Part shown: positions 1 to 34,788 of the stretch, piece by piece
Layout: every line of letters starts with the position of its first letter
Numbering within the stretch: position 1 is the first letter of the stretch
Assembly: GCF_002140155.1 (NCBI RefSeq)
Contig: NZ_NAPR01000003.1
Coordinates: 16,903-60,075, forward strand
Reading direction: 5' to 3'
Length of the DNA: 43,173 nt
Source of the DNA: Micromonospora sp. NBS 11-29
GTDB lineage: Bacteria; Actinomycetota; Actinomycetes; Mycobacteriales; Micromonosporaceae
Position numbers and translations under genes: made by a program
The notes under the pieces: model-generated
What the model was told of the DNA's origin: nothing
The model's database searches: none
The model's input: the letters and a program-made list of their open reading frames with translations, nothing else

Positions 1-1363
1 GCCAGCCGCCCGCCCGGGCGGCGCCGACCAGTTGGTCGAGCTGGCCGTTGACCGCCAGCGGGTTGACCTGCCAGCGGGCGCTGACCACCATCGCGGTGGT
101 GGTGTCCCGCTGCTGGTCGTCCACGTCGGCCCGGCCGACCAGGCGCAGGCAGCCGGCGGCCACGTCGGGTCGACCGGCGGCGAGGGCCTGGGCCGCGGCG
201 TCGTGCAGCACCGACACGGTCCAGCCGGCCTCCGCCCATCCGGCGGCGACCAGATGCTCGGCGACCGCGCCCGGCTCGGCGCCGTGCTCGTGCAGCACCT
301 CGGCGGCCCGCCGGTGCAGGTGGTGCCGTTCGTCGACGGACATGTCGGCCAGGATGGACCGCCGGATCCGCGGGTGGCGCAGCCGGTCCTGGTCCAGCAG
401 GCCGGTGGCGCGCAGCACCCGGACCATCGGCGCGACGGACTCCGGCACCACGTCGAGCAGGTGGCCGAGCAGTTCCGGTGGGCCCGGCCGGTCCAGCACC
501 GCCAGCGCCTGGGCCACCCGGCGTACGCCCGGCTCGTGCCGGTATAGGCAGCCGAGCACGGCCTGGTCGAACGAGTCGCCAAGGATCACGTCCGGGGCCG
601 GTTCCTCGTCCGTGCCGGTCGGTGGCCGCTCGTCGATCAGGGCCCGGGTGAGCAGTGGGTTGCCGCCGGTCATCCGCAGGCACCGCTCGGCGGTCTCCCG
701 GGCGGCCGGCGCGACGTCGTCGTCGACGAGGCGGGCGATCGCCTCGACGGTCAGCGGCGGCAGGGTGATCCGGGTGAAGTGGGGTTGACTGAACAGTTCG
801 GCCCGGAAGTGGGGGTGCGACGGGCGCAGGGTGCGTGCCTCGGCGAGCACCACCATGATCGGGGTGTGCCGCAGCCGCCGGGCGACGTAGAGCAGACAGT
901 GCAGCGACGCCGGGTCGGCGTGGTGGACGTCGTCGACGGTCAGCACGAGCGGTCCCGACTCGGCGAGGTCGAGCAGCGTGTTGAACAGTCCGTGCAGCAC
1001 CGGCGCCCACACCTGGTCGTCGCCGGCGGGGCCGTCCGGGGCGTCGTGTCCGGGCTCGCGCCGGGAGGGCGGCGCGTCGCGCAGCAGGTTCTGCACCCGC
1101 GCGCCGGCCTCGGGGTCCAGCCGGGCGCCCTGCAGGAGTTGGCCGAGCACTCCCAGGTGCAGGCCGCGTTCGGCGCGGGAAGCGGTCGCGCTGAGCACCC
1201 GGCCCCCGGCGCCGGCGGCCCAGTCGCCGAACGACTCCAGCACGCTCGTCTTGCCGCTGCCCACCGCGCCGGTGACGAGTGAGACGTGCCCTCGCCGCTG
1301 CCGTTCGCAGTTCCGGAAGGTCTCCCGGAGCAGGGTGAGTTGTTCCTCTCGCTGTACCAGCAC
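1..1363 (-). CDS. LAL-type LuxR family regulator, N-terminal part (cut by window edge)
   Basis: Large ATP-binding transcription regulator, of which only about the first 450 residues are in the window; the C-terminal LuxR helix-turn-helix expected of the family would lie left of base 1. The minus-strand frame stays open to the edge. It shows a Walker A loop (GAVGSGKTS) and a Walker B stretch (LVLTVDDVHHAD), then winged-helix and tetratricopeptide-like helical sequence as in MalT/LAL proteins. The start is uncertain: GTG at 1363 gives the family-like opening VLVQREEQL, while GTG at 1408 and 1420 are in frame further upstream, the latter behind a GGAG. The motif order closely matches the next gene, so the two are probably paralogues. 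LAL regulators usually activate secondary-metabolite or sugar genes; the target cannot be read from sequence. Confidence 0.88.
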   Translation of the reverse strand, partial: MLVQREEQLTLLRETFRNCERQRRGHVSLVTGAVGSGKTSVLESFGDWAAGAGGRVLSATASRAERGLHLGVLGQLLQGARLDPEAGARVQNLLRDAPPSRREPGHDAPDGPAGDDQVWAPVLHGLFNTLLDLAESGPLVLTVDDVHHADPASLHCLLYVARRLRHTPIMVVLAEARTLRPSHPHFRAELFSQPHFTRITLPPLTVEAIARLVDDDVAPAARETAERCLRMTGGNPLLTRALIDERPPTGTDEEPAPDVILGDSFDQAVLGCLYRHEPGVRRVAQALAVLDRPGPPELLGHLLDVVPESVAPMVRVLRATGLLDQDRLRHPRIRRSILADMSVDERHHLHRRAAEVLHEHGAEPGAVAEHLVAAGWAEAGWTVSVLHDAAAQALAAGRPDVAAGCLRLVGRADVDDQQRDTTTAMVVSARWQVNPLAVNGQLDQLVGAARAGGW

Positions 1364-1833
1364 GTGTCCTGTCAGCCCTTCTCGTCCGCGGTGCCGAAGC
1401 GGGGTCACCGCCGCCGGCACGCCGCTCCGTCCGGTGCCGCGGGCGGCCCCCTCACCACACCCCTCGATGACGCGGGAACAGGGGTGCAGCACTGGCCGCC
1501 GGGCCGGTCGGAGCCGTTCTTCCTTGACCAGAACGTCTCGTCGCCTGAAAATTTCCGACTGCAGGCGAGTCTGGCACCGGCTCTGGCGTGCGACAACGGT
1601 CGCGGGACCCCACCGTTTCGGCGGCAAACCTGCGGTGTCAACCGACGCTTAGGGGTTGCGCGGCTGACCGGAAGGGGGGCGGGGTCGGGCCGGGTGACGG
1701 ACGGGTTTCGCCACGATGGACGGGAGGTGACGTCGATCGAGGTGATGAAAACACATCTCGGCTGGTCGCGCACGCCCGAGTGGCCGGTCGGGGTCGACCG
1801 GTGGGCGGATCGGCGTTGGCCGACCGGGTGGGC
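1364..1833. other. 470-bp intergenic stretch between two LAL regulators
   Basis: No convincing gene. It should carry the promoter of the partial LAL gene on its left, and the end of the second LAL gene lies on its right. The middle (about 1520-1560) is less GC-rich. A 6-bp inverted repeat, CGCCTG at 1542-1547 and CAGGCG at 1562-1567, flanks an AAAATTT core and could be an operator or part of a promoter. Open frames across it lack both codon bias and a ribosome-binding site. Confidence 0.4.
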
Positions 1834-4602
1834 TCAGCGCTCGAAGCGGAGCCGGGCGGCCAGTTCGCTGCGGGAGTTGACGTCGAGCTTGCGGTAGATC
1901 CGGGTCAGGCGCTGCTCGATGGCGCTGACGGTGAGGAACATCCGCTCGGCGATCTCCCGGTTGGTGTGTCCCTGCGCGGCCAGCGCGGCGACCCGCGACT
2001 CGGCGTCGCTGAGACCGGTGAGCAGCACGGCGGAGTCGGCACCGGGGTCGGGCACGGCGGGCCGGCCGGTGGCGGGCCGACCGGTGGCGGTGGCCGGCCG
2101 CAGCACCGGGATCCCGCACTCCTCGGCGAGGTCCCGCGCGGCCCGGGACGTGCTGCGTGCCTGACGCAGATCACCGGCCTGCTGCTGGGCCTGGCTGAGA
2201 TCGCCGAGGGCGTGCGCCAACTCGACCCGGGCGCCGCACTGGCGCAGCAGCCGGACGGCCTCGCGCAGGTGTCGGATCCGCTCCGGACCCCCGCGCAGGG
2301 CGGCGAGCACCCGCAGCGCCGCGCCGCGGTACCGCAGGTCGGTCGGGCGGAGTCGGTCCAACTCCTCCCGCACCAGCTTCTCGGCCTGCTGCGGGCGACC
2401 CAGCCGCAGCAGCGCCCGGGCCGATTCGGTACGCCAGGGAACCAGCGGCGCCAGGTCCAGTCGCCAGGCGGTCATCAGCTGCCCGCACAACTGGAAGTCG
2501 GCGAGTGCCGCCTCGGGCCTGCCGGTCGCGAGCGCGTGCAGCCCTCGGGCGTGCAGGTAGTGCAGCCCGAACGGCGATTCGAACAGGACCTGCGGCACCG
2601 GCGTACGCAGGCAGGCCGCCGCCTCCTCCCACTGTTCGAGCAACGTCAGCGTCAACAGTTGGATGGCCAGCGGTGCGCCGATGGCGACGCCCCAGCCCTT
2701 GGGAGACAGCCGGTGGAGCGCCGACTCGGCCAGTTCCCGGGCCCGGGGCAGGTCGCCGAGCCGGCAGACCGCCGTGGCGGCGACCGAGGCGAGCAGGGCG
2801 CGCGGCGTACGGTGCTGGCGCTCGGCGGCGATGCGGTCCAGCCGTTCGCACCAGTCGGCGGCCAAGTCCAGGCGGTCGGCGTAGATCATGGCGATCACCG
2901 CGCAGACGGCGCTCCACATGCTCGGCTCGTCGTCCAGCCGCAGCGTGCCGAGGGTGCGCTCGGCGTTCTCGACCGCGCCGAGGTCGCCGCGTTCGAGCAC
3001 GGTGCCGAGCAGGAGCACCCCGCGCAGCCGGTGCCGGACCCGGGCCAGGACGAGCGGGTCCCGGGTGGTGCCCGGCGGGGTGGGCCCGTCGATCGGCAGT
3101 CCCGGGTAGAGGGTGATCATCCAGCCTTTGATGATGAACAGGTCGGCGGCCGAGTTCCCGTCCAGGTCGGTGCGTTCGCCGAGGTGGTGGATGAGGTCGA
3201 GGGCCCGGCCGATCTGGCCGTGCCAGAGCAGGTACTGGATGGCCCCGGCGGCCTGCCGGGTCCCGAGGTGTCCGGCGCGTACGGCGGTGGCGACGTCGAG
3301 CATGTGGGGGACGGCGCCCTGCGGGTCCAGCCGCCACTCGGCGCGGGCCAGGGCGGACCGGATCCGCGCCCGCAGGCACTCACCCGTGGCTTCCCGGTTG
3401 GCCCGACGCAGGTAGCGCAGTGCGGCGTCCACGTCGCCGTCGCTCAACGCCTGCCCACCCGCGTCGAGCAGGGTCTGCGCCATCCAGGGCTCGGTCAGTT
3501 CGTCGGTGGTCAGCAGGTGCGGGGCGACCCGGGACGGCGAGGCACCGTCGTCGTGCAGCAGGTGCGCGGCGGCGCGGTGCAGCCGGGCGCGTTCGGCCAC
3601 GGTCATGCCGTCGAGCACCGCCCGGCGTACCGCCGGGTGCCGCAGCCCGTCGGCGGTGACGAGGCCACCGCTGGTGGACGCGTCGACCGCGTGCAGGTTC
3701 AGCGCGGAGGGCAGGTCGATCAGGTGCGGAACGGTCGGGCCGTGCAGTGGCTCGTCGGTCACCGCGAGCACCCGCGCGGTCTTCAGCACCAGGTGTTCAC
3801 AGCGGTAGAGGCAGCTCAGCACCGCCTCCCGGAACGCCTCACCGGGCATCGGCGAGTCGGCGCCGGCGGGGTGGTCGTCGGCCAGGGCGTGCACCAGCAG
3901 CGGGTTGCCGCCGCTGACCAGGTACGCCTCGTCGGTGATGCGGCGCGCGACCGGCACGCCCAGCCGGTCGGCCAGGATCTGGTACGTCCCGTCCGCGGAG
4001 AGCAGGGGGAGCCGGACCCGGTGCAGCCGGGCCGGTTGGAGCAGTTCGGCGTAGGCGGTGGGGTGCCACGGCCGGGTGCGCGGCGCCTCGGTGAGCACGA
4101 TCAGCACGGGCAGACCGGTGATCCGCCGGGCCAGGTGGTCGAGGCAGTGCAGGGACGGCGCGTCGGCGTGCTGGACGTCGTCGACCGCCACCACCACGGG
4201 GGCGCGTGTGGCGAGTTCCAGCAGCTCACCGCCGATCGCGGCGGTGAGGGGGGCGAGCGCTTCCTCGTCGACGGACTCGCTCCAGTGCAGTACGGCGCGG
4301 TCCAGCAGCCGGCCGACGCGGTCCCGGTCGTCGTCGGTCATGGTGGCACGGCGGACGATCTGCCGGATCACCTCCAGCGGGACGGTGCGTTCGCTGCGGG
4401 ACGCGCTCGCGCCGAGGAAGGCGACCCCGGCTTCGGCGCACCGGTGGGCGAAGGAGCGCAGCAGGGTCGTCTTGCCGGCGCCGACCGGCCCGCTGATCAG
4501 GGTGATCGGATTCGAGACAGGGGTGGGGGCGTCCGGGCGGAGCAGATCGCCGAGCCGATCGGTCAGGACGTCGAGCTGCCGGTCCCGTTCGGCTGTCGTC
4601 AT
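1834..4602 (-). CDS. LAL-type LuxR family transcriptional regulator
   Basis: Full-length (922 aa) large ATP-binding LuxR regulator. Domains in order: AAA/STAND ATPase with Walker A GPVGAGKT (about residues 38-45) and Walker B VVVAVDDVQHAD (about 136-147), a long helical repeat region, and a C-terminal LuxR helix-turn-helix beginning at LSDAESRVAALAAQGHTNRE and ending in RSELAARLRF. I prefer ATG at 4602, with GGAGG eight bases upstream, over an in-frame GTG at 4665 that has no clear ribosome-binding site. The family senses small molecules or proteins through the helical region and activates transcription when ATP-bound. It lies in tandem with a second LAL gene, about 1.2 kb from the matB/PPTase block, which is a possible but unproven target. 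Confidence 0.93.
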   Translation of the reverse strand: MTTAERDRQLDVLTDRLGDLLRPDAPTPVSNPITLISGPVGAGKTTLLRSFAHRCAEAGVAFLGASASRSERTVPLEVIRQIVRRATMTDDDRDRVGRLLDRAVLHWSESVDEEALAPLTAAIGGELLELATRAPVVVAVDDVQHADAPSLHCLDHLARRITGLPVLIVLTEAPRTRPWHPTAYAELLQPARLHRVRLPLLSADGTYQILADRLGVPVARRITDEAYLVSGGNPLLVHALADDHPAGADSPMPGEAFREAVLSCLYRCEHLVLKTARVLAVTDEPLHGPTVPHLIDLPSALNLHAVDASTSGGLVTADGLRHPAVRRAVLDGMTVAERARLHRAAAHLLHDDGASPSRVAPHLLTTDELTEPWMAQTLLDAGGQALSDGDVDAALRYLRRANREATGECLRARIRSALARAEWRLDPQGAVPHMLDVATAVRAGHLGTRQAAGAIQYLLWHGQIGRALDLIHHLGERTDLDGNSAADLFIIKGWMITLYPGLPIDGPTPPGTTRDPLVLARVRHRLRGVLLLGTVLERGDLGAVENAERTLGTLRLDDEPSMWSAVCAVIAMIYADRLDLAADWCERLDRIAAERQHRTPRALLASVAATAVCRLGDLPRARELAESALHRLSPKGWGVAIGAPLAIQLLTLTLLEQWEEAAACLRTPVPQVLFESPFGLHYLHARGLHALATGRPEAALADFQLCGQLMTAWRLDLAPLVPWRTESARALLRLGRPQQAEKLVREELDRLRPTDLRYRGAALRVLAALRGGPERIRHLREAVRLLRQCGARVELAHALGDLSQAQQQAGDLRQARSTSRAARDLAEECGIPVLRPATATGRPATGRPAVPDPGADSAVLLTGLSDAESRVAALAAQGHTNREIAERMFLTVSAIEQRLTRIYRKLDVNSRSELAARLRFER

Positions 4603-4898
4603 CGGGCGGGCCTCCGCCCGACCCCGGCCTGCGGGTGAGCGGGTCGCCGTGGTCTCCGGTGACACCCGACCCAGTCAGAGACCCACAAATCCTCGACCCA
4701 TTCCATTGGCGAATACCGACAACGATGGTACGGCGTGGACGATTCATCGAACGTCGCACCCGGTCTTGTGCGCCTAATCCGCCTCGCTGCTGTCCCACTA
4801 TTCGGGGCGGACCGGCACGGTCCGCCACGATCAATCCCGATTCATGGGGTGGAGTATGTCAGCCCGGCAATTGGGCGGCAAGTCGGAGGATGTAAAGG

Positions 4899-5364: not shown

Positions 5365-5810
5365 TGCAACTTGTAGTTAAAGAAGAAGAAATTCGCCGCG
5401 CGATGGTTCGTGAAACGGTGAACTTCGCGAGAGAAGTGCCGTAGGTAACTGTGCGGAAACGAATCGCAAATCACATTAGCCGGCGCCTGGGAGGCCCATT
5501 GCCGGCGGGCTCCACAATGATTAGCCCATCGATTATCACCCGGACGGGCCGGTTACCCGCCGGAACGTGATGATCAACAGGAGGTTTCCCCGTCCGTCGC
5601 GCGTCCTCCCGTCCACGACCTGCCGCTGCGGCCACACCCGCAGCTCGCGGGCGGGTTCGGCCGCGCCATAATCCGGGCACTGGTAGGGGTTGTCCACCCC
5701 CCGGCCGGCGGCCTAATTTCGGACTGTCCGCCGTTGCCTGCGGAGGACAATCCGCCGCACCGACGGGGAGAGCGGCCAAGGGCCGCGTACGCCCGGGACG
5801 TGAAGGGTTC

Positions 5811-7244
5811 GTGCGTGATCTGCCAACCACCGCCGAGATTCCGGGACCAGGTCGGATGAGGCTCCTGCCCGGGCTGCGGGGAACCGGGGCGGACCGCTCC
5901 GACGCGCTCCGGGTCGCCGACCGTACCCTCTCCGCCGAAGCACTGCTGGGTTGCGCCAACGCGGTCGCCGGCCGGATCCGTGGCGCGCGGGCGGTCGCGG
6001 TCGAGGCCGGGCCCAGCCTGGAGGCCATGGTGGGGATCGTGGGCGCGGTGCAGGCCGGTGTGCCGTTGGTGCCACTGCCCCCCGGCGCCGAGCCGGGCGA
6101 GTGCAGCCGGATCCTGCGCGAGTCCCGGGCCGACGTCGTACTCGGACGCGCCACCGCCGGCTGCGACCTGCCGGTCGTCCCGGTGGACCTGCGGCAGCGC
6201 TCCTGGACCACCCATCCCGAGCCGCCGCCGGCCGCCGACGCGGTGATCCTCTACACCGGCGGCGTCGGTGGGCTCTCCCGTGGCGTACGCATCTCGCATC
6301 GCGCCATCGCCGCCGACCTGGACCTGCTCGCCGCCGCATGGTGCTGGACCGCCGAGGACGTCCTGGTCCAGGGCGCGCCGCTGTTCCGGGCGTACGGGCT
6401 GGTGGTCGGGCTGCTCGGCGCGTTGCGCGTGGGCAGCCGCTTCGTCCACCTGGACCGGCACGCGACCGCCGGCCCGGCCGGCACCATCTACCTGGCGCTG
6501 CCCGAGCAGTGGGCGCGCATCGCCCGGGACACGGCGCGGGCGCGCACCCTGGCCGGGGCGCGCATGCTGGTCTCCGGCGACGCGCCGCTCGCCCCCGCGG
6601 TGGGGGAGCGGCTGCGGTTGCTCACCTCGCACCGCCCGGTGGACGGGTACGGCACCACCGAGACGCTCGTGGTGCTGACCGGTCCGGCCGGCGCCGCCGG
6701 CGCCGTGCTGCCCGGCGTGCAGACCCGGGTGCTCGGTCAGGACGGCCGGCCGGTGCCCGCCGACGGCGACTCGGTGGGCGAGTTGAGCGTGCGGAGCCCG
6801 ACGCTGTTCAGCGGCTACGTCGACCGGCCCGGGTCGGCGCCGCCCGCCGACGGCTGGCACCCCACCGGGGACCTGGCCACCGTGGACCCGGCCGGCGGCC
6901 ACCGGATCCTCGGCCGCGGCGGCACCCACGTGGTGCGCTGCGGCGGTCGCCCGGTGCCCGCCCACCAGGTCGAGGAGGTGCTGCTCACCCACCCCGGGGT
7001 GCACGAGGCGGCGGTGGTCGGCGCCCCGCACCGCACGCGCGGCGAGCAGGTCGTGGCATACGTCGTCGCGGCGGCCGGGCTCACCGCGCAGGCGCTCATC
7101 GACCATGTGGGCCGGTTGCTCTCGGCGGCGGCGCGTCCCCGACGGGTGCACTTCGTCGACGAACTGCCGCGCAGCGCGCAGGGGCGGGTCCGCAGGTCGC
7201 TGCTGATCCGACGCAGCGCGCACACCCCCCTGCGCGACCCCTGA
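5811..7244 (+). CDS. MatB-like AMP-binding protein with degenerate catalytic motifs (pseudo-acyl-CoA synthetase)
   Basis: 477-aa member of the acyl-adenylate/acyl-CoA synthetase superfamily, clearly paralogous to the intact matB downstream. Its fold motifs survive: GYGTTE (279-284) and the TGD of A7 (352-354). Every key reactive position is changed. The phosphate loop YTSGTTGAPKG of matB is here YTGGVGGLSRG (148-158). The HVHGL substrate motif is RAYGL (193-197). The A8 lysine is Arg376. The C-terminal GKVQK is GRVRR (458-462). I find no lysine anywhere in the protein. The frame is intact with normal codon bias, so it looks maintained rather than a decaying pseudogene. The start is GTG 5811, with ATG 5856 as an alternative. 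It sits 52 bp before a PPTase on the same strand. It may have a non-catalytic role, or a changed one; function unknown. Confidence 0.85.
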   Translation: MRDLPTTAEIPGPGRMRLLPGLRGTGADRSDALRVADRTLSAEALLGCANAVAGRIRGARAVAVEAGPSLEAMVGIVGAVQAGVPLVPLPPGAEPGECSRILRESRADVVLGRATAGCDLPVVPVDLRQRSWTTHPEPPPAADAVILYTGGVGGLSRGVRISHRAIAADLDLLAAAWCWTAEDVLVQGAPLFRAYGLVVGLLGALRVGSRFVHLDRHATAGPAGTIYLALPEQWARIARDTARARTLAGARMLVSGDAPLAPAVGERLRLLTSHRPVDGYGTTETLVVLTGPAGAAGAVLPGVQTRVLGQDGRPVPADGDSVGELSVRSPTLFSGYVDRPGSAPPADGWHPTGDLATVDPAGGHRILGRGGTHVVRCGGRPVPAHQVEEVLLTHPGVHEAAVVGAPHRTRGEQVVAYVVAAAGLTAQALIDHVGRLLSAAARPRRVHFVDELPRSAQGRVRRSLLIRRSAHTPLRDP

Positions 7245-7296: not shown

Positions 7297-7959
7297 GTGA
7301 TCGAACGGATCCTGCCGCCGGCCGTGGTGGTGGAGGAGTGCTTCACCGACCCGGCCGGGCTGCGCCTGCACCCCGAGGAGGAGCGGGTCGTCGCCAACTC
7401 GGTGGCGAAACGCCGCCAGGAGTTCACCACCGTCCGGCACTGCGCCCGGCGGGCGCTGGCCCGGCTCGGCCTGCCGCCGGCGGCGATCCTGCCCGGCGTC
7501 CGCGGTGCGCCGTCCTGGCCGACCGGCGTCGTCGGCAGCATGACCCACTGCGACGGCTACCGGGGCGCCGTACTGGCCCGGGCCGGGGCGGTCGGCGGCG
7601 TCGGGGTGGACGCCGAACCACACGCGCCGCTGCCCGACGGGGTGCTGGACGCGATCGCCCTGCCCGCCGAGCGGGCCCGCATCGCGGCGTTGCGCGCCAC
7701 CCACCCGGAGGTCTGCTGGGACCGGCTGCTGTTCAGCGCCAAGGAGTCGGTCTACAAGGCATGGTTCCCGCTGACCGGGCGTTGGCTGGACTTCGCCGAG
7801 GCGGACATCGTGGTCGACCCGGCCGGCACGTTCGCCGCCCGGCTGCTGGTGCCCGGGCCGCGCCTCGGCGGCGTGGAGCTGACCGGCTTCGACGGCCGGT
7901 TCCTGGTGGAGCGGGGGCTGGTGCTCACCGCGATCACCGTCCCGGCGCCGGAAGCCTAG
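7297..7959 (+). CDS. Sfp/EntD-type 4'-phosphopantetheinyl transferase
   Basis: 220-aa PPTase that moves phosphopantetheine from CoA to a serine of carrier proteins (PKS, NRPS or fatty-acid type). The three family motifs are visible: SMTHCDGY (about 81-88), the magnesium-binding GVDAE (Asp105, Glu107), and LLFSAKESVYKAW, with Lys149-Glu150 and Lys154. Length and motifs fit the EntD-like actinobacterial group that modifies secondary-metabolite carriers. GTG at 7297 opens the frame directly after the upstream pseudo-MatB gene, suggesting co-transcription. Its TAG stop lies in a CTAG palindrome that also supplies the stop of the convergent matB gene. No carrier protein is encoded in the window, so its substrate is elsewhere. 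Confidence 0.95.
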   Translation: MIERILPPAVVVEECFTDPAGLRLHPEEERVVANSVAKRRQEFTTVRHCARRALARLGLPPAAILPGVRGAPSWPTGVVGSMTHCDGYRGAVLARAGAVGGVGVDAEPHAPLPDGVLDAIALPAERARIAALRATHPEVCWDRLLFSAKESVYKAWFPLTGRWLDFAEADIVVDPAGTFAARLLVPGPRLGGVELTGFDGRFLVERGLVLTAITVPAPEA

Positions 7960-9359
7960 GTCAACCGGCTCTTCTGCACCTTGCCCATGGCGTTGCGCGG
8001 CAGCGCGTCGACCAGCCGCACCTGCCGGGGCCGCTTGTGCACGGAGAGCTGCCGAGCCACGAAGTCGATCAGCTCGGCCTCGCCCAGCCCGTCGCCGACC
8101 ACGTACGCGGTGACCTGCTGCCCCAGGTCGGGGTGGGGGGTGCCGACCACCGCCGCCTCCCGGACCCCGGGGTGGGCCAGCAACGCGTCCTCCACCTCAC
8201 CCGCGCCGATCCGGTACCCACCGCTCTTGATCAGGTCGGTGGCCGCCCGGCCGACGATCCGGTGCCAGCCGTCCGGGCCGACGGTCGCCACGTCACCGGT
8301 GCGGAACCAGCCGTCCGCCGTCCGGGTGGCCGCGTCGGCGTCCGGCCGGTTCAGGTAGCCGTCGAAAAGCGTGTCGCCGCGCACCTGCAGCTCGCCCATC
8401 GCCTCGCCGTCGGCGGGCAGCGGTGCGCCCTGCTCGTCGACCACCCGGGTGCGCACGCCGGGCAACGGCACGCCCACGGTGCCCGGTCGTCGGGGCCCGT
8501 CCGCCCGGGCGCTGACGGTGATCAGCGTCTCGGTCATCCCGTACCGCTCGACCGGCCGGTGGCCGGTCAGCTCGGCGAGCGCGGCGAAGACCGGCTCGGG
8601 GAGCGCGGCGCTGCCCGACACCAGCAGGCGGGCCCCGCGCAGGGCCCGCGCCGCCGCCGGCTCCGCCGCGATCCGCGACCAGATCGTGGGTACGCCGAAG
8701 TAGAGCGAGCCGGCCGCGGCCGCGTACCGGTCGGGGCGGGGCCGGCCGACGTGGCGCAGCCGGCTGCCGATGCGCAGCGGGCCGAGCACGCCGAGCACCA
8801 GCCCGTGCACGTGGAACAGCGGCAGCCCGTGCGCCAGCACGTCGTCCGGTGTCCACGCCCAGGCGTCGGCGAGCCCGTCCAGGCAGGCGGCCACCGCGTC
8901 CCGGGACAGCACGGCGCCCTTCGGCGCACCCGTGGTGCCGCTGGTGTAGAGGATGAGCGCGGTGGCCGCCGGGTCGGGCTCGGGATGCCGGGTGTCCGAG
9001 CGCCGGGCCGGGTCGACGGGCACGACCGGTGGTCCGGCCGGAGCGTCGACCGGCCGGTCGCCGGTCGTCGCCAGCAGCACCTCAGCGCCGGAGTCGCGCA
9101 GGATGTGGTCGCGTTCCACCGGCCCGGCGTCCGGCGGCACGGGCACCACCGCGGCACCGGCCAGCAGGCCGCCGACCACGCCGACCACGGTTTCCAGGCT
9201 GGCCGTGGCGGGCACCGCCACCCGGGCCGCCCCGTTCAGGTCGTCGGCGACCGCGGCGGCCGCGCGGCGCAGCTCCGTCCAGGACATCGACCGCCCGTCG
9301 ACCCGGATCGCGTCCGGACGCTCGTCGGTGGACTCGACGAGCCAGCTCAGCAGCGGCAC
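7956..9359 (-). CDS. matB: Malonyl-CoA synthetase (MatB)
   Basis: 467-aa cytosolic acyl-CoA synthetase that activates malonate, and often methylmalonate, with ATP and CoA, giving extender units for fatty-acid or polyketide synthesis. Motifs are intact: phosphate loop YTSGTTGAPKG (138-148), the MatB-type PLFHVHGL (180-187), RYGMTE, DLIKSGGYRIGAGE of A8, and the C-terminal catalytic lysine in GKVQK (459-463). Overall sequence strongly resembles Streptomyces MatB. The GTG start at 9359 was chosen because a GAGAGGGG lies just upstream and the family N-terminus begins here; the frame remains open much further upstream but without coding character. It converges on the PPTase, sharing CTAG at the stops, and is the active counterpart of the degenerate paralogue at 5811-7244. 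Confidence 0.93.
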   Translation of the reverse strand: MPLLSWLVESTDERPDAIRVDGRSMSWTELRRAAAAVADDLNGAARVAVPATASLETVVGVVGGLLAGAAVVPVPPDAGPVERDHILRDSGAEVLLATTGDRPVDAPAGPPVVPVDPARRSDTRHPEPDPAATALILYTSGTTGAPKGAVLSRDAVAACLDGLADAWAWTPDDVLAHGLPLFHVHGLVLGVLGPLRIGSRLRHVGRPRPDRYAAAAGSLYFGVPTIWSRIAAEPAAARALRGARLLVSGSAALPEPVFAALAELTGHRPVERYGMTETLITVSARADGPRRPGTVGVPLPGVRTRVVDEQGAPLPADGEAMGELQVRGDTLFDGYLNRPDADAATRTADGWFRTGDVATVGPDGWHRIVGRAATDLIKSGGYRIGAGEVEDALLAHPGVREAAVVGTPHPDLGQQVTAYVVGDGLGEAELIDFVARQLSVHKRPRQVRLVDALPRNAMGKVQKSRLT

Positions 9360-9678: not shown

Positions 9679-10605
9679 ATGCCGGTCATCGAGGTCGAAC
9701 ACCTGCACAAGAGATACGGCGACAAGGTGGCCGTCGACGACGTCTCCTTCACGGTCGAACAGGGCGAGATCTTCGGCGTGCTCGGCCGCAACGGCGCCGG
9801 CAAGACCACGACGGTCGAGTGTGTGCAGGGTCTGCGGCGGGCCGACCGCGGCACCGTGCGGGTGCTCGGCCTCGACCCGGTGCGTGACCGCACCGAGGTG
9901 CGCCAGCGGGTCGGTGCCCAGTTGCAGGAGAGCCAGCTCCCGGACAAGCTGCGGGTACGCGAGGCGCTCGACCTCTACCGGTCGTTCTACCGCAACCGCG
10001 CCGACATCGACGAGCTGCTGACCGACCTGGGCCTGGCCGAGCAGCGCAACACCGCGTTCCACAAGCTCTCCGGCGGTCAGAAGCAACGCCTGTCGGTGGC
10101 GTTGGCGCTGGTCGGCCGGCCGGAGATCGCCGTCCTCGACGAGCTGACCACCGGGCTGGACCCGAAGGGTCGGCGGGACACCTGGGACCTGGTCGAGCGG
10201 ATCCGCGACCGGGGTGTGACGGTCGTGCTGGTGACCCACTTCATGGCCGAGGCGGAGCGGCTCTGCGACCGGCTCGCCCTGATCGACGCCGGCCGGGTGG
10301 TGGCCATCGACACGCCGTCCGGCCTGATGTCCCGGGTGGACGCCGAGCACCGGGTGCACTTCCGCCCGCTCGATGAGTTCGACGACGCGGTGCTGTCCGT
10401 CCTGCCCGAGGTCGGCTCGGTCCGGCGGGACGGCGACGAGGTCACCGTCACCGGTCCCGAGGAGGTGCTCCAGGCGGTGCTGTCGACGCTCGCCGAGCAG
10501 AAGATCCGCTATTCCGGCCTGCGGGTCGAGCAGCCCACCCTGGACGACGCCTTCGTCTCCCTCACCGGTCACCCCGGCACGCCGTCCGACGGAAGGTCAT
10601 CGTGA
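9679..10605 (+). CDS. ABC transporter ATP-binding protein, DrrA-like exporter type
   Basis: 308-aa ATPase of a two-gene ABC-2 exporter, acting at the inner face of the membrane. Walker A GRNGAGKT (36-43), signature LSGGQ (130-134), Walker B AVLDEL (151-156) and the switch histidine in VTHFM (His187) are all present. The extra C-terminal domain (about residues 220-300, ending in LDDAFVSLTG) is typical of DrrA/CcmA-like exporters. The ATG start follows GGAGGA by eight bases. The stop overlaps the permease start as GTGA, so the two are translationally coupled. Substrate unknown; such pairs export antibiotics, lipids or drugs. Nearby regulators and a PPTase do not prove a link. Confidence 0.95.
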   Translation: MPVIEVEHLHKRYGDKVAVDDVSFTVEQGEIFGVLGRNGAGKTTTVECVQGLRRADRGTVRVLGLDPVRDRTEVRQRVGAQLQESQLPDKLRVREALDLYRSFYRNRADIDELLTDLGLAEQRNTAFHKLSGGQKQRLSVALALVGRPEIAVLDELTTGLDPKGRRDTWDLVERIRDRGVTVVLVTHFMAEAERLCDRLALIDAGRVVAIDTPSGLMSRVDAEHRVHFRPLDEFDDAVLSVLPEVGSVRRDGDEVTVTGPEEVLQAVLSTLAEQKIRYSGLRVEQPTLDDAFVSLTGHPGTPSDGRSS

Positions 10606-11342
10606 ACGCCCTGTCCAAGCTCGTCGCCGTCGAGGCCAAGCTGTTCCTGCGCGAGCCGGTCTCGCTGTTCTTCGTCTTCGCCCTGCCGCTGGGCCTGATG
10701 CTGGTGTTCGGGCTGCCGCAACGCGGCGCCGACCCGGGGGCGGCCACCGGGCAGCACGGCGAGCAGACGTTCCTGCCGTCGATCGCGTTGTCCCTGACCA
10801 TCGGCATGCTCGCGCTGTTCACGCTCCCCATGGCGCTGGGCATCTACCGCGAACGCAAGGTGCTGCGGCGGTTGGCCACCACCCCGGTCAGCCCGGCGCT
10901 GCTGCTCATCGCCCAGGTCGTGGTCAACCTGGTCATGGGCGTGGCCGGCGCGGTGGTCACCGCGCTGGGCGTACGCCTGCTGCTGGACCAGCCGGCGCCG
11001 GCCAACGTCGCCGGTTTCGTGGTGGCGTTCCTGCTCGGGGTGGCCTGCCTGTTCGCGATCGGCCTGCTGATCGCGGCGCTCGCCCCGTCCGCGCGGTCGG
11101 CGCAGTCGATCGGGCCGACGCTGTTCTTCCCGCTGCTCTTCCTGGCCGGCGCCTGGCTGCCGCGCGACCAGATGCCCACGGTGCTGGCCCGGATCGGCGA
11201 GTACTCGCCGCTGGGCGCGACCGTGGACACCATCTCGGCGGCGTGGGCGGGGCAGAACCCCGCCGTGCCGCAGTTGCTGGTGCTGGCCGGCACCGCCGTC
11301 GTGGGCTGCCTGCTCGCCGCCCGTCTCTTCCGCTGGGAGTAG
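10602..11342 (+). CDS. ABC-2 type permease
   Basis: 246-aa integral membrane partner of the preceding ATPase. An N-terminal segment with FVFALPLGLMLVFG is followed by about five more hydrophobic segments, including LFFPLLFLAGAWLP, the usual ABC-2 pattern. It starts at GTG 10602, overlapping the ATPase stop by four bases. The C-terminus ends in ARLFRWE, as in many actinobacterial members. With the ATPase it forms a complete exporter. Confidence 0.93.
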   Translation: MNALSKLVAVEAKLFLREPVSLFFVFALPLGLMLVFGLPQRGADPGAATGQHGEQTFLPSIALSLTIGMLALFTLPMALGIYRERKVLRRLATTPVSPALLLIAQVVVNLVMGVAGAVVTALGVRLLLDQPAPANVAGFVVAFLLGVACLFAIGLLIAALAPSARSAQSIGPTLFFPLLFLAGAWLPRDQMPTVLARIGEYSPLGATVDTISAAWAGQNPAVPQLLVLAGTAVVGCLLAARLFRWE

Positions 11343-21330: not shown

Positions 21331-23439
21331 TCAGTGGATGCGCCGCCCGCGCGCGTCCGGCACCCCCGACTTGCGGAAGAAGTACGCGTTGACCTGGTCC
21401 CGCCACTCGGTGGCACAGCGGAACTGCTCATCGAGCCGGTCGGCCACCCGCTCGTACACACCCGGGTCGAGCAGGCCGGCGAGCGTGCGCCACCGCTCGC
21501 GCATCGCCGCCACCTGCTCGACGCCGGCGAAGTGCGTGTCGTAGATGTGCTGGATCACGGTGCTGCCGCTGTGCAGGACGTGGTCGTAGGGGACATGGTG
21601 GAAGAAGAGCAGCAGCTCGTCCGGGCACCGCTCGCGTGACTCGTACCGCTCCGCCCACGGCGACGGGTACTGGCCGGTGAAGCCGGTCCCGGTGGCCCGG
21701 GTGCGGTCCACCCCGACGCCGTCGCGGTCGGCGAAGTGGTACGTGCCCCAGGCGGTGTACTCGTAGCCGTCCACGTCGGGCCCGTAGTGGTGCCCGGGTC
21801 GCACCATGAAACCCACACCCAGCGGCGCGGTGTAACGCTCGTAGGTGCGCCACGAGTCGTCCATGACCTCGTGCAGCGTCCGCCGCACCCGCTCCGGGTC
21901 GCCGCTCGTCGGCAGCCAGGTCAGCTCGATCCACTCGTCGAGGACCGTGGCGGGGTCCAGGCCGGGGTCCCAGGCGAGCCGGCCGAAGGCGTACAGGTTG
22001 GCCTGGGCCAGCGGGTGCCCGGTCCAGAACGGGTCGTCGCCGGTGTTGGCGACGCCGACCAGGCCGCCGCCCGTCGCCCCGGCGACCACGTCGGCGATCG
22101 TGCCGCGCCCCTCGCCCCGGGGCGCGAACCGCAGCACCTCGCTCCACCAGGGACCGAGCCAGCAGACGTGCCGCTGCTGGCCGGTGTACTCCTGGGTCAC
22201 CTGCACCTCCACCGCCAGGCAGGTGGCCGGCATCGCCGCGAGCAGCGGCGACACCGGCTCGCGTACCTGGAAGTCCACCGGGCCGAACTTCACCTGGAGG
22301 ACCACGCCGTCGGCGAACCGCCCGTCCAGGGGGACGAAGTGGTCGTGGGCGGCCCGGGCCCGGTCGGTCGTGCGGTCCCGCCAGTCCTGGTGGTGGTCGT
22401 AGACGAAGGCCCGCCAGTGCACCACGCCGCCGTGCGGGGCGAGCGCACCGGCGAGCAGGTTCGCGCCGTCGGCGTGGTCGCGCCCGTACGTGAACGGTCC
22501 GGGTTGACCCTCGGAGTCGGCCTTCACCAGATAGCCGCCGAAGTCCGGGATGCGCTCGTACACCCGCCGGGTGGCGCCGTCCCACCAGGCCCGCACCCGG
22601 TCGTCGCGCGGATCGGCGGTGGGCAGGCCACCGAGGACCACCGGGGCGGCGAACGTCACCGCCAGGTGCACCCGGACACCGTACGGGCGCAGCACGTCCG
22701 CGATCTCCGCCACGTCGTCCAGCCGGTCGGTCAGCAGCCGCGCCTCGGTGGCGTGCACGTTGACGTTGTTCACCGCGACCGCGTTGACCCCGCAGGCGGC
22801 GAGCAGCCGTCCGTAGTCGCGGATCCGGGCCACGTCCCGGCGGGCGACGCCGTCCCGCCAGAAGATCGAGCCGCCGGCATACCCCCGCTCGATCTGACCG
22901 GAGACCGGGTGCACGGCCACGTTGTCCCAGTGGTCGAGCATGCGCCGGGTCAGCGCCGGGGCGTCCCGCCGCGCCGGCCGGTCGACGCCGAAGGCCGCCG
23001 CGCCGAGCCGGACCACGTGGAACAGCCCGTACAGCAGCCCGGCCGGCGTGTCGGCCAGCACCACCGTCACGCCGGCCTGCCGGGCGGTCAGGAACCCCTC
23101 CGCGCCGAGGGACCCGTCGGTGCGCCCGTTCACCGCCGTCGTCGCGGCGAGGCGGACGGTCTCCGCCGTCGCGTTCGCCAGCGGCCCGGCGTCGCGCAGC
23201 GCGAGCACCAGGTCGGCGTCGACGTCCCAGGACGGGGAGCGCCACACCCGCCCGCCGTACCGGGCGCAGGCCCGCGTCACCTCGTCCAGCACGGTGTCCA
23301 CGAGCAGGCCGTGGCCGTGCACCAGGACGCTGCGGGCGCCGATGGCCCGGAACGCCTCCGGCGGCAGCCAGGCGGCGTGCCAGGCCGGCTCGTCGACCCC
23401 GACCGACGCGGGGCAGCCGAGCGGTTCGATGCCGGTCAC
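21331..23439 (-). CDS. aguA: GH67 alpha-glucuronidase
   Basis: 702-aa intracellular enzyme (no signal peptide) that removes (4-O-methyl-)glucuronic acid from the end of xylo-oligosaccharides. The general acid is in VKADSEGQPGP (Glu310). The paired base residues are in GPVDFQVREPV (Asp389) and QVTQEYTG (Glu417), with the same 28-residue spacing as in characterised GH67 enzymes. Length is normal. The annotated GTG start 23439 has no good ribosome-binding site. A 15-codon ORF with a strong one ends exactly at this GTG (see 23436-23483), so translation is probably coupled, or the true N-terminus is shifted by an indel. Last gene of the importer operon. Confidence 0.94.
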   Translation of the reverse strand: MTGIEPLGCPASVGVDEPAWHAAWLPPEAFRAIGARSVLVHGHGLLVDTVLDEVTRACARYGGRVWRSPSWDVDADLVLALRDAGPLANATAETVRLAATTAVNGRTDGSLGAEGFLTARQAGVTVVLADTPAGLLYGLFHVVRLGAAAFGVDRPARRDAPALTRRMLDHWDNVAVHPVSGQIERGYAGGSIFWRDGVARRDVARIRDYGRLLAACGVNAVAVNNVNVHATEARLLTDRLDDVAEIADVLRPYGVRVHLAVTFAAPVVLGGLPTADPRDDRVRAWWDGATRRVYERIPDFGGYLVKADSEGQPGPFTYGRDHADGANLLAGALAPHGGVVHWRAFVYDHHQDWRDRTTDRARAAHDHFVPLDGRFADGVVLQVKFGPVDFQVREPVSPLLAAMPATCLAVEVQVTQEYTGQQRHVCWLGPWWSEVLRFAPRGEGRGTIADVVAGATGGGLVGVANTGDDPFWTGHPLAQANLYAFGRLAWDPGLDPATVLDEWIELTWLPTSGDPERVRRTLHEVMDDSWRTYERYTAPLGVGFMVRPGHHYGPDVDGYEYTAWGTYHFADRDGVGVDRTRATGTGFTGQYPSPWAERYESRERCPDELLLFFHHVPYDHVLHSGSTVIQHIYDTHFAGVEQVAAMRERWRTLAGLLDPGVYERVADRLDEQFRCATEWRDQVNAYFFRKSGVPDARGRRIH

Positions 23440-23483
23440 CGGCCCGCCCGCCGCGCCGGGTCCCCGATGTCCCCTGTGCTCAT
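23436..23483 (-). CDS. 15-codon bridging ORF between DUF624 and GH67 genes
   Basis: ATG 23483 overlaps the DUF624 stop (ATGA) and is preceded by AAGGAG at eight bases. It encodes MSTGDIGDPARRAGR and stops at TGA 23436-23438, which overlaps the GTG of GH67 (GTGA). So ribosomes could pass DUF624 to mini-ORF to GH67 without leaving the message. The alternative is that this ATG is the original GH67 start and a one-base indel separates it from the GH67 frame. Confidence 0.35.
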   Translation of the reverse strand: MSTGDIGDPARRAGR

Positions 23484-24169
23484 GCGGTGAACTCCTTCCG
23501 GATCACGCCGATCATCGGTTCGCCGATCCGCAGCAGCGCCAGCACGAAGACCACGGCCAGGAGTGCGAGCGCCGCCTCGGAGAAGACGGCGGTGACGCCG
23601 ACGGCGGCGGCCAGCAGCAGGGCGTTGCCGACCGTGACGCCCGGCGTGCGCACCAGGAAGTACACGGCGAGGCGGGCCACGTCGCGGGTGCGGAAGGTGA
23701 ACAGCGAGACGATCACCAGCGCGTTCGCCCCGGCCAGCACGACCCCCGCACCGACCAGCGCCAACGGCACCGCCCACCAGGACGGTACGGCCGCGGCGGG
23801 CAGGTGGGCGAGGTTCACCGCGACGACGGTCAGCCACAGCAGCGTCGGCCCCCACACCCGCAGCACGCCCGGCAGGTTGGCCCGGTAGGCCCGTCGGAAC
23901 GCGCGGGCCGGCCGCAGGTCCGTCGGGTCGGGCCGCTGGTGGCGCAGGGTGTGCAGCGCGGCCGAGACGGCCGGGCCGACCGGCAGCAGGCAGAGCGCGA
24001 CCAGCGGCAGGTTGCTGGCGTCGCGGTCGAGCAGCACCAGCGCGGCCAGCACGGGCACGGTGGTGAGCAGGAGGAACAGTTCGACGACGAGCAGGATGTG
24101 CACGGCCGCGGCGGCCCGCGACAGCAGCCCGTCGCCGAACTCCCGCCGGCGCTGCGCGGTGCCGTTCAC
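23480..24169 (-). CDS. YesL/DUF624 family membrane protein
   Basis: 229-aa protein with about five hydrophobic segments (HILLVVELFLLLTTVPVLAA, LLWLTVVAVNLAHL, ALVGAGVVLAGANALVIVSL and two near the C-terminus). The family (YesL in Bacillus) is found almost only beside LplB/YtcP-type sugar ABC importers and is thought to be an accessory of these transporters. GTG 24169 overlaps the GH39 stop as GTGA, so it is coupled within the operon. Confidence 0.85.
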   Translation of the reverse strand: MNGTAQRRREFGDGLLSRAAAAVHILLVVELFLLLTTVPVLAALVLLDRDASNLPLVALCLLPVGPAVSAALHTLRHQRPDPTDLRPARAFRRAYRANLPGVLRVWGPTLLWLTVVAVNLAHLPAAAVPSWWAVPLALVGAGVVLAGANALVIVSLFTFRTRDVARLAVYFLVRTPGVTVGNALLLAAAVGVTAVFSEAALALLAVVFVLALLRIGEPMIGVIRKEFTA

Positions 24170-25716
24170 GACTGCCCCGGCGGGTCCGCCGGCGCCGTGT
24201 CGTCGGGCCCGTCGAGCAGCCGGTCGTCGTCGCCCCACGGCGGCGTCTCGTCCACCACCGGGGTCAGCTCGACCAGGGTCACCTCGTGCCGGGCGAGGGT
24301 GAGGTCGACGTCGATCCGGCCGGCGGTGACCGGCAGGGCGCGGTGGGTCCGGGCCGGCTCGGCGGCCTCCCGCAACGCGTCGAGCTGCCGGGGCCGGGGG
24401 GAGTGCGGGCTGCCCATCTCCCGCCAGGCCGCCCGGACGTTGCCGGCGTCCTCGCTCACCGACGACCGGAGCTGGAACGCCGAGGTGGTGCCCGGCGGGC
24501 CGAGCGGGACCGACAGCGCCAGGGTGTGCCGCTCGGGTGTCGGCTCCCGCCCGGTGACGTCCACCGGGGCCCAGGCCAGCACTGCGACCCGGCCGTCCGG
24601 GTGACGGGTGACCAGGTGGTCCGGCCCGCGGGCGAGCACGTCGTCGCCGAGCCGGGCCATGAACGCGTACAGGTGGTAGGTGGGTTTCTTGAGCTGCCGG
24701 TGGGCGAGCAGGCCGAAGCCGCCGTGCAGCGGCGCGGTCGGCACCCCGACCTCCTCGAACACGTCGCTGAAGGTCCAGTACGAGAACGAGTCGACCAGGT
24801 CACCGCCGCCGGCCAGCACCGGGGCGAGGTAGGCGGCGTGGAACGCGGTGTCGTGGATCGGGTTGTCCGGCCGGTAGGAGGAGTTGAACTCGGTGATGTG
24901 CACCGGCAGGTCCGCGAGCGCGGTGCCGGCCAGGTGGCGGCGCGGCGCGGCGAACTGGTCCAGCAGCTCCGCCGCCGGGGCCAGGCTCTGCCGGGTGCCG
25001 AACGGCACCTGCCGGGCCGGCCCCGAGGTGTACGCGTGGCGGCTGACGAAGTCCACCGGCACGTCCCGCGCGGCGACGAACTCGGCGAACGGGGCCAACC
25101 ACTCGTCCGCGCCGGGGGAGATGGCCGGGCCGCCCACCTGGAGTGCCGCGTCGACGTCCTTGACCGCGTGCGCCGACACCTCGTACAGGCGGTGGTAGGC
25201 GTCCCGGTCGGCGTCGCGCCAGAACGCGGTCAGGTTCGGTTCGTTCCACACCTCGATCGGCCAGCCGCGCACCTCGTCGAGGCCGTACCGGTCGACCAGG
25301 TGGGCCACCGTGGCCCGGACCAGGTCGGCCCATTCGGAATGGGAGCGCGGCGGGGTGACGTTGCCCCGCCACCAGAAGACGGTCTGGTCGCCGGAGGCGA
25401 GTTCCGAGGGCATGAAGCCCAGCTCCACGAAGGGCCGGATGCCCAGGTCGAGGTAGGCGTCGACGACCTGGTCGACGTACGTGAAGGCGTGCCGCACCCG
25501 GCGTTCGCCCCGGTGCTCGTACGGTCGGTGCACGCCGACGCCATCGCTGAGCAGCCCGTGGCCGCGGATGTGCCGGAAGCCGACGTCCCGCTGCACCAGC
25601 GCCAGCGAGTCCTGGTAGTCCCGGCGCAGGGCCAGGTCGAACCGCCCGGTGCCCACGCAGGTGCGCCAGGCGTCGGTCAGCCGGCCGGTGGGCCGGTCGT
25701 CCACGGTGATGCGCAT
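24166..25716 (-). CDS. GH39 beta-xylosidase
   Basis: 516-aa GH39 enzyme that trims xylose from xylo-oligosaccharides. The acid/base is Glu159 in EVWNEPN and the nucleophile Glu276 in HITEFNSSY, one residue from the positions (160 and 277) in the characterised Thermoanaerobacterium xylosidase. The core runs to about residue 420 and is followed by a small beta-sandwich ending in ARHEVTLVELTPV. The acidic tail of about 30 residues is probably disordered. No signal peptide, so it acts on imported oligosaccharides. It starts 6 bp after the binding-protein stop, in the same operon. Confidence 0.93.
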   Translation of the reverse strand: MRITVDDRPTGRLTDAWRTCVGTGRFDLALRRDYQDSLALVQRDVGFRHIRGHGLLSDGVGVHRPYEHRGERRVRHAFTYVDQVVDAYLDLGIRPFVELGFMPSELASGDQTVFWWRGNVTPPRSHSEWADLVRATVAHLVDRYGLDEVRGWPIEVWNEPNLTAFWRDADRDAYHRLYEVSAHAVKDVDAALQVGGPAISPGADEWLAPFAEFVAARDVPVDFVSRHAYTSGPARQVPFGTRQSLAPAAELLDQFAAPRRHLAGTALADLPVHITEFNSSYRPDNPIHDTAFHAAYLAPVLAGGGDLVDSFSYWTFSDVFEEVGVPTAPLHGGFGLLAHRQLKKPTYHLYAFMARLGDDVLARGPDHLVTRHPDGRVAVLAWAPVDVTGREPTPERHTLALSVPLGPPGTTSAFQLRSSVSEDAGNVRAAWREMGSPHSPRPRQLDALREAAEPARTHRALPVTAGRIDVDLTLARHEVTLVELTPVVDETPPWGDDDRLLDGPDDTAPADPPGQS

Positions 25717-25722
25717 CGCCGG

Positions 25723-27366: not shown

Positions 27367-27405
27367 GGGGCTTCCTCTCGGTGGTGGGTGGTGGCGCGGG
27401 CGCGG

Positions 27406-29225: not shown

Positions 29226-29252
29226 CCTCGCCCCCACCGTGGCCGTCGAAAA

Positions 29253-29283
29253 CTTCCGGTAACGCTCCACAAGCTTTCCGGAA
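29253..29283. promoter_or_regulatory. Direct repeats TTCCGGTAA / TTCCGGAAA in the divergent xylan promoter region
   Basis: TTCCGGTAA (29253-29261) and TTCCGGAAA (29275-29283) lie 22 bp apart, about two helical turns, on the same face. The second sits in the palindrome TTTCCGGAAA. They lie in an AT-rich 121-bp gap between the importer operon (leftward) and the CE7 esterase (rightward), where one regulator could control both sides. The flanking GAAAACTTCC and GCTTTCC bases recall xylan-regulator half-sites (GAAA-N-TTTC) of actinomycetes only loosely. Confidence 0.5.
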
Positions 29284-29346
29284 ATTTATGGTGATCGCTA
29301 GAACAATGTCAAGGAGATCGATGCACCATCCCGCCCTGGAGGATCC

Positions 29347-31483: not shown

Positions 31484-31534
31484 GATCCGATCCTGCCCCG
31501 GTCGTCGGCCCGGCGGCCACCCGATTCGCCGCCG

Positions 31535-34682: not shown

Positions 34683-34700
34683 GTGTGCCCCTCCCGGCCC

Positions 34701-34727
34701 TGAATGCGCTTTCAGTAAGCGCTTTCA
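34701..34727. promoter_or_regulatory. Two tandem LacI-type operators
   Basis: TGAATGCGCTTTCA (34701-34714) and AGTAAGCGCTTTCA (34714-34727) share one base and both contain the GCGCTTTCA half of the classic palindrome TGAAAGCGCTTTCA. The first matches its own reverse complement at 12 of 14 positions. They lie between the divergent oxidoreductase and LacI genes. One regulator probably represses both. Confidence 0.75.
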
Positions 34728-34788
34728 GAATGTTACGGTAGCCACGCCCGCACACCGGGTCAAGACGTTCGGCGGGGGAGACACATCG

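Follow-up and report, generated by a model that had tools for sequence, protein, structure and literature searches.

The window analysed here is a stretch of 43,173 nucleotides from Micromonospora sp. NBS 11-29 (NZ_NAPR01000003.1, positions 16,903 to 60,075), and the subject of this text is a paralogue of the malonyl-coenzyme A (CoA) synthetase MatB encoded near its left end. An open reading frame (ORF) runs from 5811 to 7244 on the plus strand, and translation of this window ORF from its GTG codon gives 477 amino acids with no lysine. Since the sequence MTLLP or MRLLP is conserved among the orthologues at an internal methionine, which also aligns with the start of MatB, the ATG at 5856 is more likely to be the start codon than the alternative GTG at 5811, and the gene would then extend from 5856 to 7244 on the plus strand and encode a MatB-derived pseudoenzyme candidate of 462 amino acids. 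The original prediction, made from the sequence of the window, had described a 477-residue protein with broken MatB motifs; the ORF, the replaced motifs and the missing lysines all hold, and the start is what needs to be moved. Upstream of the gene lie a conserved promoter-like element of the form TAGGGGTTGT-N19-CTAATTT (5684 to 5719, plus strand), whose box is common to quinolidomicin-type polyketide synthase (PKS) genes, and a partly conserved leader between the -10-like part of this element and the ATG (5720 to 5855, plus strand). A short upstream ORF of about 15 codons, ending beside the ATG, was considered in the leader and dropped, as it is present in several orthologues only and its start codon or frame is gone in others.

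The MatB paralogue is followed, 52 nt past its stop codon, by a gene for a PptT-like 4'-phosphopantetheinyl transferase (PPTase) with a GTG start (7297 to 7959, plus strand), and this gene is convergent with matB, which encodes an intact malonyl-CoA synthetase of 467 amino acids (7956 to 9359, minus strand). The other side is occupied by two LAL regulators (large AAA ATPase/LuxR-type): LAL2, of 943 amino acids (1834 to 4665, minus strand), which serves here as a marker of the PKS cluster, and LAL1 (1 to 1627, minus strand), which starts at about 1627, runs off the left end of the window and is grouped with LAL2 by BLAST only. The locus is flanked by genes for a DrrA-like ABC transporter ATPase (9679 to 10605) and a DrrB-like ABC-2 permease (10602 to 11342), both on the plus strand.

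The paralogue and the neighbouring MatB align over their full length with 234 of 467 positions identical (50%, E 1e-119), and the changes in the reactive motifs that had been reported from the sequence are right in substance. In the A3 phosphate loop, YTSGTTGAPKG of MatB is replaced by YTGGVGGLSRG, so that the first threonine and three glycines are kept and the serine, both later threonines and the lysine are lost. Further on, HVHGL becomes RAYGL, ERYGMTET becomes DGYGTTET, DLIKSGG of A8 becomes HVVRCGG and NAMGK of A10 becomes SAQGR. Two Pfam models accept the protein, PF00501 with 130.4 bits (cut-off 29.9) and PF13193 with 74.9 bits (cut-off 24.5), while in NCBIfam NF005858 it scores 464.4 bits, below the cut-off of 575, and the neighbouring MatB scores 739.3, above it. 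NF005858 (PRK07787) is titled 'acyl-CoA synthetase', and the name MatB is the label given in this analysis; the neighbouring protein is under the cut-off of NF005702, 'malonyl-CoA synthase' (338 against 558), and it is called MatB because it keeps the residues that match Arg283, His189 and Ser261 of Streptomyces coelicolor MatB (ScMatB), as do all 25 copies linked to the paralogue. Annotators should be warned that the general models used here score the MatB paralogue as an acyl-CoA synthetase.

Orthologues were collected with a profile built from six of them and run on 160 genomes of the window's genus. An orthologue was found in 26 of these genomes (E of 4.5e-241 or better), the next matches being MatBs at 2.5e-153 or worse, and all 26 Micromonospora carriers have an open frame of 457 to 467 amino acids. 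Two peptide patterns run on a named collection picked out 18 loci, of which nine unrelated ones have 25-35% identity and nine, all from Micromonospora, have 67-87%; the latter belong to Micromonospora sp. RP3T, M. rubida, Micromonospora sp. MW-13, M. okii, M. haikouensis, M. marina, Micromonospora sp. C31, M. chalcea and M. halophytica. Widening the search to the family gave matches at 1e-160 in 27 of 354 genomes, of which one (G354) is from another genus; among 397 genomes sampled evenly from the order, nine have a match at 1e-155, all within the window's genus.

The replacements were counted in the 26 orthologues against the 25 linked MatBs. All 26 orthologues carry glycine for the A3 serine, arginine for the A3 lysine, arginine for the first A4 histidine, aspartate for a serine of the pocket and arginine for the A10 lysine, each in a column that is invariant in the 25 MatBs. 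The second A4 histidine is replaced by tyrosine or phenylalanine, the malonate-binding arginine by glycine or alanine and the A8 lysine by histidine, arginine or glutamine, again in 26 of 26. The original prediction that the A8 lysine is an arginine thus holds for the window protein, and for the family as a whole it does not (15 histidines, 10 arginines and one glutamine). Because the same changes recur in every orthologue, they go beyond what chance would give, and orthologues with intact motifs, which were looked for as a refutation, number none among the 26. The labels A4, A5 and ribose-side aspartate are those we presume to apply to these motifs.

By counting along an alignment with the sequence of 3nyq, the altered positions could be mapped to those of ScMatB. 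PMC6122825 describes His189 of this enzyme as part of the pocket lining, and Ser261 and Arg283 as residues bonded to the (methyl)malonyl product; the equivalents of these three residues are kept in none of the 26 orthologues. The same paper names five residues (Glu, Gly, Asp, Arg and the A10 Lys) that do not vary across 374 ANL sequences. In the orthologues, the glutamate and the aspartate are present in 26 of 26, the glycine in 25 and the arginine in 23, and the A10 lysine in none, its place being taken by arginine throughout. Of the residues around the ligands, the magnesium-binding glutamate and the ribose-side aspartate are retained in all 26, and the equivalent of Arg236, which contacts the CoA phosphate, is arginine in 20, lysine in four, glutamine in one and histidine in one. 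There are 22 columns that are invariant within both groups yet differ between the paralogue family and MatB, and in motif windows A3, A4, A5, A7 and A10, whose bounds were chosen by the analyst, 39 of 63 columns are invariant, compared with 130 of 399 elsewhere (p 1.6e-5). Constraint was released in the A8 loop, where two of 16 columns are invariant in the orthologues versus 15 of 16 in MatB. This pattern suggests a nucleotide and CoA pocket that is retained without normal turnover, with the fixed arginines at A3 and A10 leaving room for an altered chemistry.

The gene is under selection. The medians of the pairwise ratios of nonsynonymous to synonymous substitution rates (dN/dS, Nei-Gojobori) are 0.35 (MatB paralogue, 319 pairs with dS between 0.1 and 1.2), 0.23 (MatB, 292 pairs) and 0.36 (PPTase, 317 pairs), and in genes as GC-rich as these the ratio is used here only in comparison with MatB and the PPTase. 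The ratio is not relaxed toward 1, and the original prediction is borne out as far as it concerns a conserved MatB paralogue with a broken active site. In a tree rooted at its midpoint, all 26 orthologues stand on one side of a branch with support of 100/100 and a long stem (0.93), a topology that fits a split of the paralogue before or within the MatBs of Micromonospora. An AlphaFold2 (AF2) model (pLDDT 88.9, pTM 0.88) has the two-domain ANL fold; MatBs are among the 26 sequences of the alignment behind it, and the fold therefore rests partly on them; an earlier model, based on 10 close orthologues, was of poor quality (pLDDT 46.9) and was discarded. The best solved-structure match of the model is 3nyq, S. 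coelicolor MatB (VIA-align Z 44.1, root mean square deviation 2.1 over 354 residues), and 4fut gives Z 40.3 over 456 residues. MatB (S. coelicolor 3NYQ, Rhodopseudomonas palustris 4FUQ) is thus nearest in both sequence and fold, with 3nyq also the top sequence match in the PDB (E 1.4e-81), and the paralogue is unlike it in that the A10 lysine, the A3 lysine and serine, the A8 lysine and the equivalents of ScMatB Arg283, His189 and Ser261 are all replaced. By its sequence and predicted structure, the paralogue belongs to the ANL superfamily through its ancestry and its fold and not through its catalytic residues. The comparisons demonstrate a gene that is intact, conserved and under purifying selection, with an active site that is broken at the level of its residues. 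The same loss of catalytic residues with the binding fold kept is a feature of pseudoenzymes, and of acylation-regulated ANL enzymes, in general; in the literature on acyl-CoA synthetases, pseudoenzymes and adenylation, none of the matches listed names an ANL pseudoenzyme connected with a PKS.

Where it could be mapped, the MatB paralogue flanks a giant type I PKS cluster of the quinolidomicin (qnm) type on its 3' side. PKS DNA was looked for in nine of the 26 carriers, in six of them for the last PKS gene, A13, only. In a relative with a complete genome (G161), 13 PKS genes spanning about 185 kb precede the paralogue, and they are followed by genes for an ABC ATPase, a UDPGT-type glycosyltransferase and two LAL regulators before the paralogue is reached. 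The first PKS gene contains a CoA-ligase-type motif and malonyl and methylmalonyl acyltransferase (AT) motifs, and the last encodes ketosynthase (KS), AT, ketoreductase, acyl carrier protein (ACP) and thioesterase domains. Eleven of the 13 genes were read by scripted motif counts, and only A13 and A11 by Pfam; the module motifs in the scripts (TACSS for KS, HAFH or YASH for AT, and similar) are those that we take to be diagnostic. Gene number, gene order and, by these motif counts, module numbers match qnmA1 to qnmA13 as given in Table 3 of PMC8698034, the counts being one below the tabulated module number in three genes (A3, A8 and A9). The portion of PMC8698034 that holds this table lists the PKS genes and is without mention of the MatB paralogue, and it records 34 of 74 Micromonospora strains, as well as M. 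okii, as having a qnm orthologue; M. okii is among the named carriers above. Two more carriers have 12 (G110) and 13 (G067) ORFs with a ketosynthase motif, and an orthologue of A13 lies upstream in all eight carriers tested besides G161, including the window's own genome (72-90% identity in the best pieces). The contig of the window also has ketosynthase matches at its start, upstream of the window.

The distribution of the marker LAL2 agrees with this placement. Its orthologue (63-84% identity) is present in 27 of the 160 genomes, that is, in 26 of the 26 carriers and in one of the 134 non-carriers (G023). Seven genomes have an orthologous PPTase and are without a LAL2 orthologue, namely G013, G122, G108, G097, G160 and G121 (at least 72% identity) and G079, in which the PPTase is broken; a LAL-type paralogue of G160 is only 41% identical to LAL2. 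MatB beside the PPTase is intact in G122, G097, G160 and G079 and split in G013. Of the MatB paralogue, a wreck is left in G122, G097 and G079, and no copy was detected in G160, G108, G121 and G013. The persistence of PPTase and MatB in genomes where the cluster is missing and the paralogue is wrecked or undetected argues that the paralogue follows the PKS cluster. In G097 (L118, 4126 to 5852), a ketosynthase fragment of 51 amino acids, 71% identical to A13, stands directly before a C-terminal remnant of the paralogue, a further ANL fragment is found about 0.5 kb upstream of the remnant, and intact PPTase and MatB genes are downstream. This scar looks like a deletion of the PKS, and the deletion itself may have cut the paralogue. 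The locus of G013 (L042, 5688 to 6872) has MatB split in pieces beside the PPTase, and the protein upstream reads, from its sequence, like a non-ribosomal peptide synthetase and not a PKS.

The paralogue also has a promoter-like box in common with the PKS genes. In all 26 copies, TAGGGGTTGT is found upstream and is followed 16-20 nt on by CCTAA(T/C)TT. A TAGGGGTTG box precedes the MatB paralogue and PKS genes A2, A4 and A6 in G161, G110 and G067, and occurs at matching places in G354. In 240 kb of G161, TAGGGGTT is present five times and always on the coding strand, once ahead of each of A2, A4 and A6, once in the gap between LAL1 and LAL2 and once ahead of the paralogue, with 2.25 occurrences on both strands expected from plain shuffling. 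The same five places carry the box in G110, and the first four do so in the stretch read of G067, where the fifth, before the paralogue, came from a genome search. In the window (1650 to 1659, plus strand), the second box, TAGGGGTTGC, lies in the LAL1/LAL2 gap in antisense orientation, as in G161, G110 and G067, and no -10-like part was seen after it. The exact 10-mer is present genome-wide four times in G161, six times in G110 and five times each in G067 and G065, three of these being in the cluster in each genome (binomial P 7e-5 to 3e-4, with the span in G065 assumed from distance). In the window's genome, three of four sites belong to the paralogue and to two PKS contigs; the site on contig C41 is followed by the start of a ketosynthase in frame, and on contig C6 the distance from the site to the beginning of a ketosynthase is 238 nt. 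In G354, four box sites with the PKS spacing recur, with the 9-mer occurring 29 times genome-wide against 59 for the reversed control. It is only the placing of the box that is unusual, not its total number. Binding of LAL regulators to TAGGGG boxes was also looked for in the literature, and none of the matches listed contains TAGGGG.

Within Micromonospora, the paralogue has the PPTase as its neighbour in 26 of 26 carriers, and a convergent MatB starts within 4.3 kb of its end in 25. The distance between paralogue and PPTase is at most 145 nt in ten carriers and at least 618 nt in 15, and a minus-strand gene occupies the gap in five of the six wide-gap genomes whose layout was compared. This gap gene reads like a cold-shock-domain protein in L033, L099, L101, L106 and L112 (five of the 12 genomes clustered; two sequences read). 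An operon with the PPTase as a conserved unit was rejected, given the variable gap and the absence of a PPTase beside the paralogue of G354. In G008 (L032), the paralogue is intact, the PPTase is shortened and there is no local MatB, another MatB being found elsewhere in the genome.

The copy of the other genus, in G354, is 61% identical over residues 68-465 of the 477-residue form and has the same signature (YTGG.TG.PRG, RVYGL, YGTTET and arginine at A10). There, the order is an A13-type PKS gene, an ABC ATPase gene and the paralogue, followed by a HAD-like and an ABC gene, the last two read from sequence. Neither a PPTase nor a MatB gene is beside the paralogue, and no PPTase match was found among ORFs of at least 150 amino acids in the 240 kb read; the nearest MatB match (82%, residues 107-399 of 467) is separated from the paralogue by 5.9 Mb of contig, or by about 2.5 Mb in the opposite direction should the chromosome be circular. 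The N-terminal frame of the paralogue is broken once, which may be a sequencing error or decay, and PKS frames of the same assembly are fragmented as well.

The lack of lysine drew attention to this protein and is true of the window's copy, although not conserved. All 25 other orthologues keep a lysine that matches K463 of MatB, where the window protein has arginine, and their totals are one or two lysines, so that the window protein is one substitution away from the family norm. The MatB of the window has five lysines, of which K147, K378, K442 and K460 correspond to positions without lysine in 26 of 26 orthologues. At the mean rate of the 19 other window genes tested, zero lysine in 462 residues has a Poisson chance of 0.0008, and two of these 19 genes also have none (121 and 326 amino acids). 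The deficit is mostly accounted for, on these comparisons, by the loss of the MatB motif lysines and a lysine-poor, high-GC composition. The original suggestion that a lack of lysine could shield the protein from acylation, read as selection for a lysine-free protein, finds some appeal in the window protein, but as a conserved property it is refuted by the 25 lysine-bearing orthologues, and we regard it as hardly credible. An outlier among the lysine-poor neighbours is a solute-binding protein (25723 to 27366, minus strand) with 37 lysines in 547 amino acids (6.8%). Elsewhere in the window, positions 21331 to 35823 hold an apparent locus for xylan use, with GH67 domains, GH39, a solute-binding protein, an acetyl xylan esterase, a GDSL lipase and a LacI-type regulator, and a Schlafen group 3 helicase-domain protein (PF09848) is encoded at 37788 to 39674 on the minus strand.

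These observations lead us to favour, with about an even chance of being right, a pseudoenzyme derived from MatB and dedicated to the PKS, which would act as a non-catalytic partner or sensor in quinolidomicin-type clusters. Several findings weigh against it. The A3 and A10 lysines are replaced in every orthologue by arginine and not by random residues, so that catalysis could be altered rather than absent. The paralogue is lost where the cluster is lost, and G023, an assembly of about 990 contigs in which LAL2 lies at a contig end, has the marker and yielded no MatB paralogue. The two LAL-type genes near the G354 cluster are only 39-43% identical to LAL2. Moreover, the number of boxes is not raised genome-wide, the 4, 4, 6, 5 and 5 sites in the window's genome, G161, G110, G067 and G065 standing against 3, 2, 7, 3 and 8 sites of the reversed pattern.

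The main rival, which we consider possible and on the whole rather unlikely, is a re-tooled ANL ligase that uses arginine for the catalytic lysine and whose substrate has changed; the exchange of serine for aspartate and the loss of the malonate arginine would suit, for instance, an acid that is neutral or bears an amino group. Such an enzyme may be slow, or may go no further than the acyl-adenylate. The arginines fixed at A3 and A10, the new signature of 22 columns and the universal retention of the magnesium glutamate and ribose-side aspartate would all suit it, and the quinone of quinolidomicin bears an amino group, according to PMC9054317. Against it stand the invariance of the A10 lysine in the 374 ANL sequences of PMC6122825, the released A8 loop and a PKS loading module that has a CoA-ligase domain of its own. 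If the paralogue were dedicated to the adjacent MatB or PPTase as a regulator or partner, as had been proposed originally, this would explain why the PPTase is always adjacent in Micromonospora, in ten carriers closely so, and MatB nearly always within reach. This proposal now seems improbable, as the paralogue goes with the PKS (LAL2 accompanies it in every carrier): the G354 copy stays with the PKS genes and has no PPTase or MatB beside it, the seven PPTase-keeping genomes without LAL2 have a wrecked (three) or undetected (four) paralogue, and in G008 the paralogue is intact despite a shortened PPTase and no local MatB. A decaying, functionless passenger hitch-hiking in a selected cluster is very improbable. 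Its dN/dS above that of MatB, the wrecked copies in G122, G097 and G079 and the frame break in G354 could be read in that way; against this, all 26 frames are intact, the ratio is like that of the PPTase, lineage-specific residues are fixed, and the box is kept in 26 of 26 carriers and in a second genus, while the G354 break may be a sequencing error since that assembly also breaks PKS frames.

For a PKS-dedicated pseudoenzyme, the following course of events can be proposed from the comparative data. A MatB paralogue would have been recruited into quinolidomicin-type giant polyketide clusters, where it presumably kept the ANL fold and the nucleotide and CoA pocket and would no longer make malonyl-CoA. 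It would be produced together with the assembly line and would bind a CoA or adenylate ligand as well as a protein partner, candidates for which are MatB, an ACP or AT of the PKS, the CoA-ligase loading domain and a LAL regulator. Its most likely effect would be to adjust how (methyl)malonyl-CoA is used by, or delivered to, an assembly line that has more than 30 modules. A more specific version, which we put forward only tentatively as it seems unlikely at present, is a ligand-gated sensor that binds (methyl)malonyl-CoA, CoA or adenylate in the non-catalytic MatB pocket and reports the status of extender units to the PKS or LAL regulators, so that the line of about 200 kb would run only when precursors suffice.

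To our knowledge, little is understood of how giant modular PKSs obtain the dozens of extender units that go into each product. A protein that derives from MatB, has lost the catalytic residues of that enzyme, is under selection in a PKS cluster, is present in two genera and has a box in common with PKS genes points to an accessory or sensor role. Additionally, the TAGGGGTTG sequence is a candidate diagnostic box for the regulon of the cluster, and the paralogue itself offers a concrete gene target for work on quinolidomicin-type compounds.

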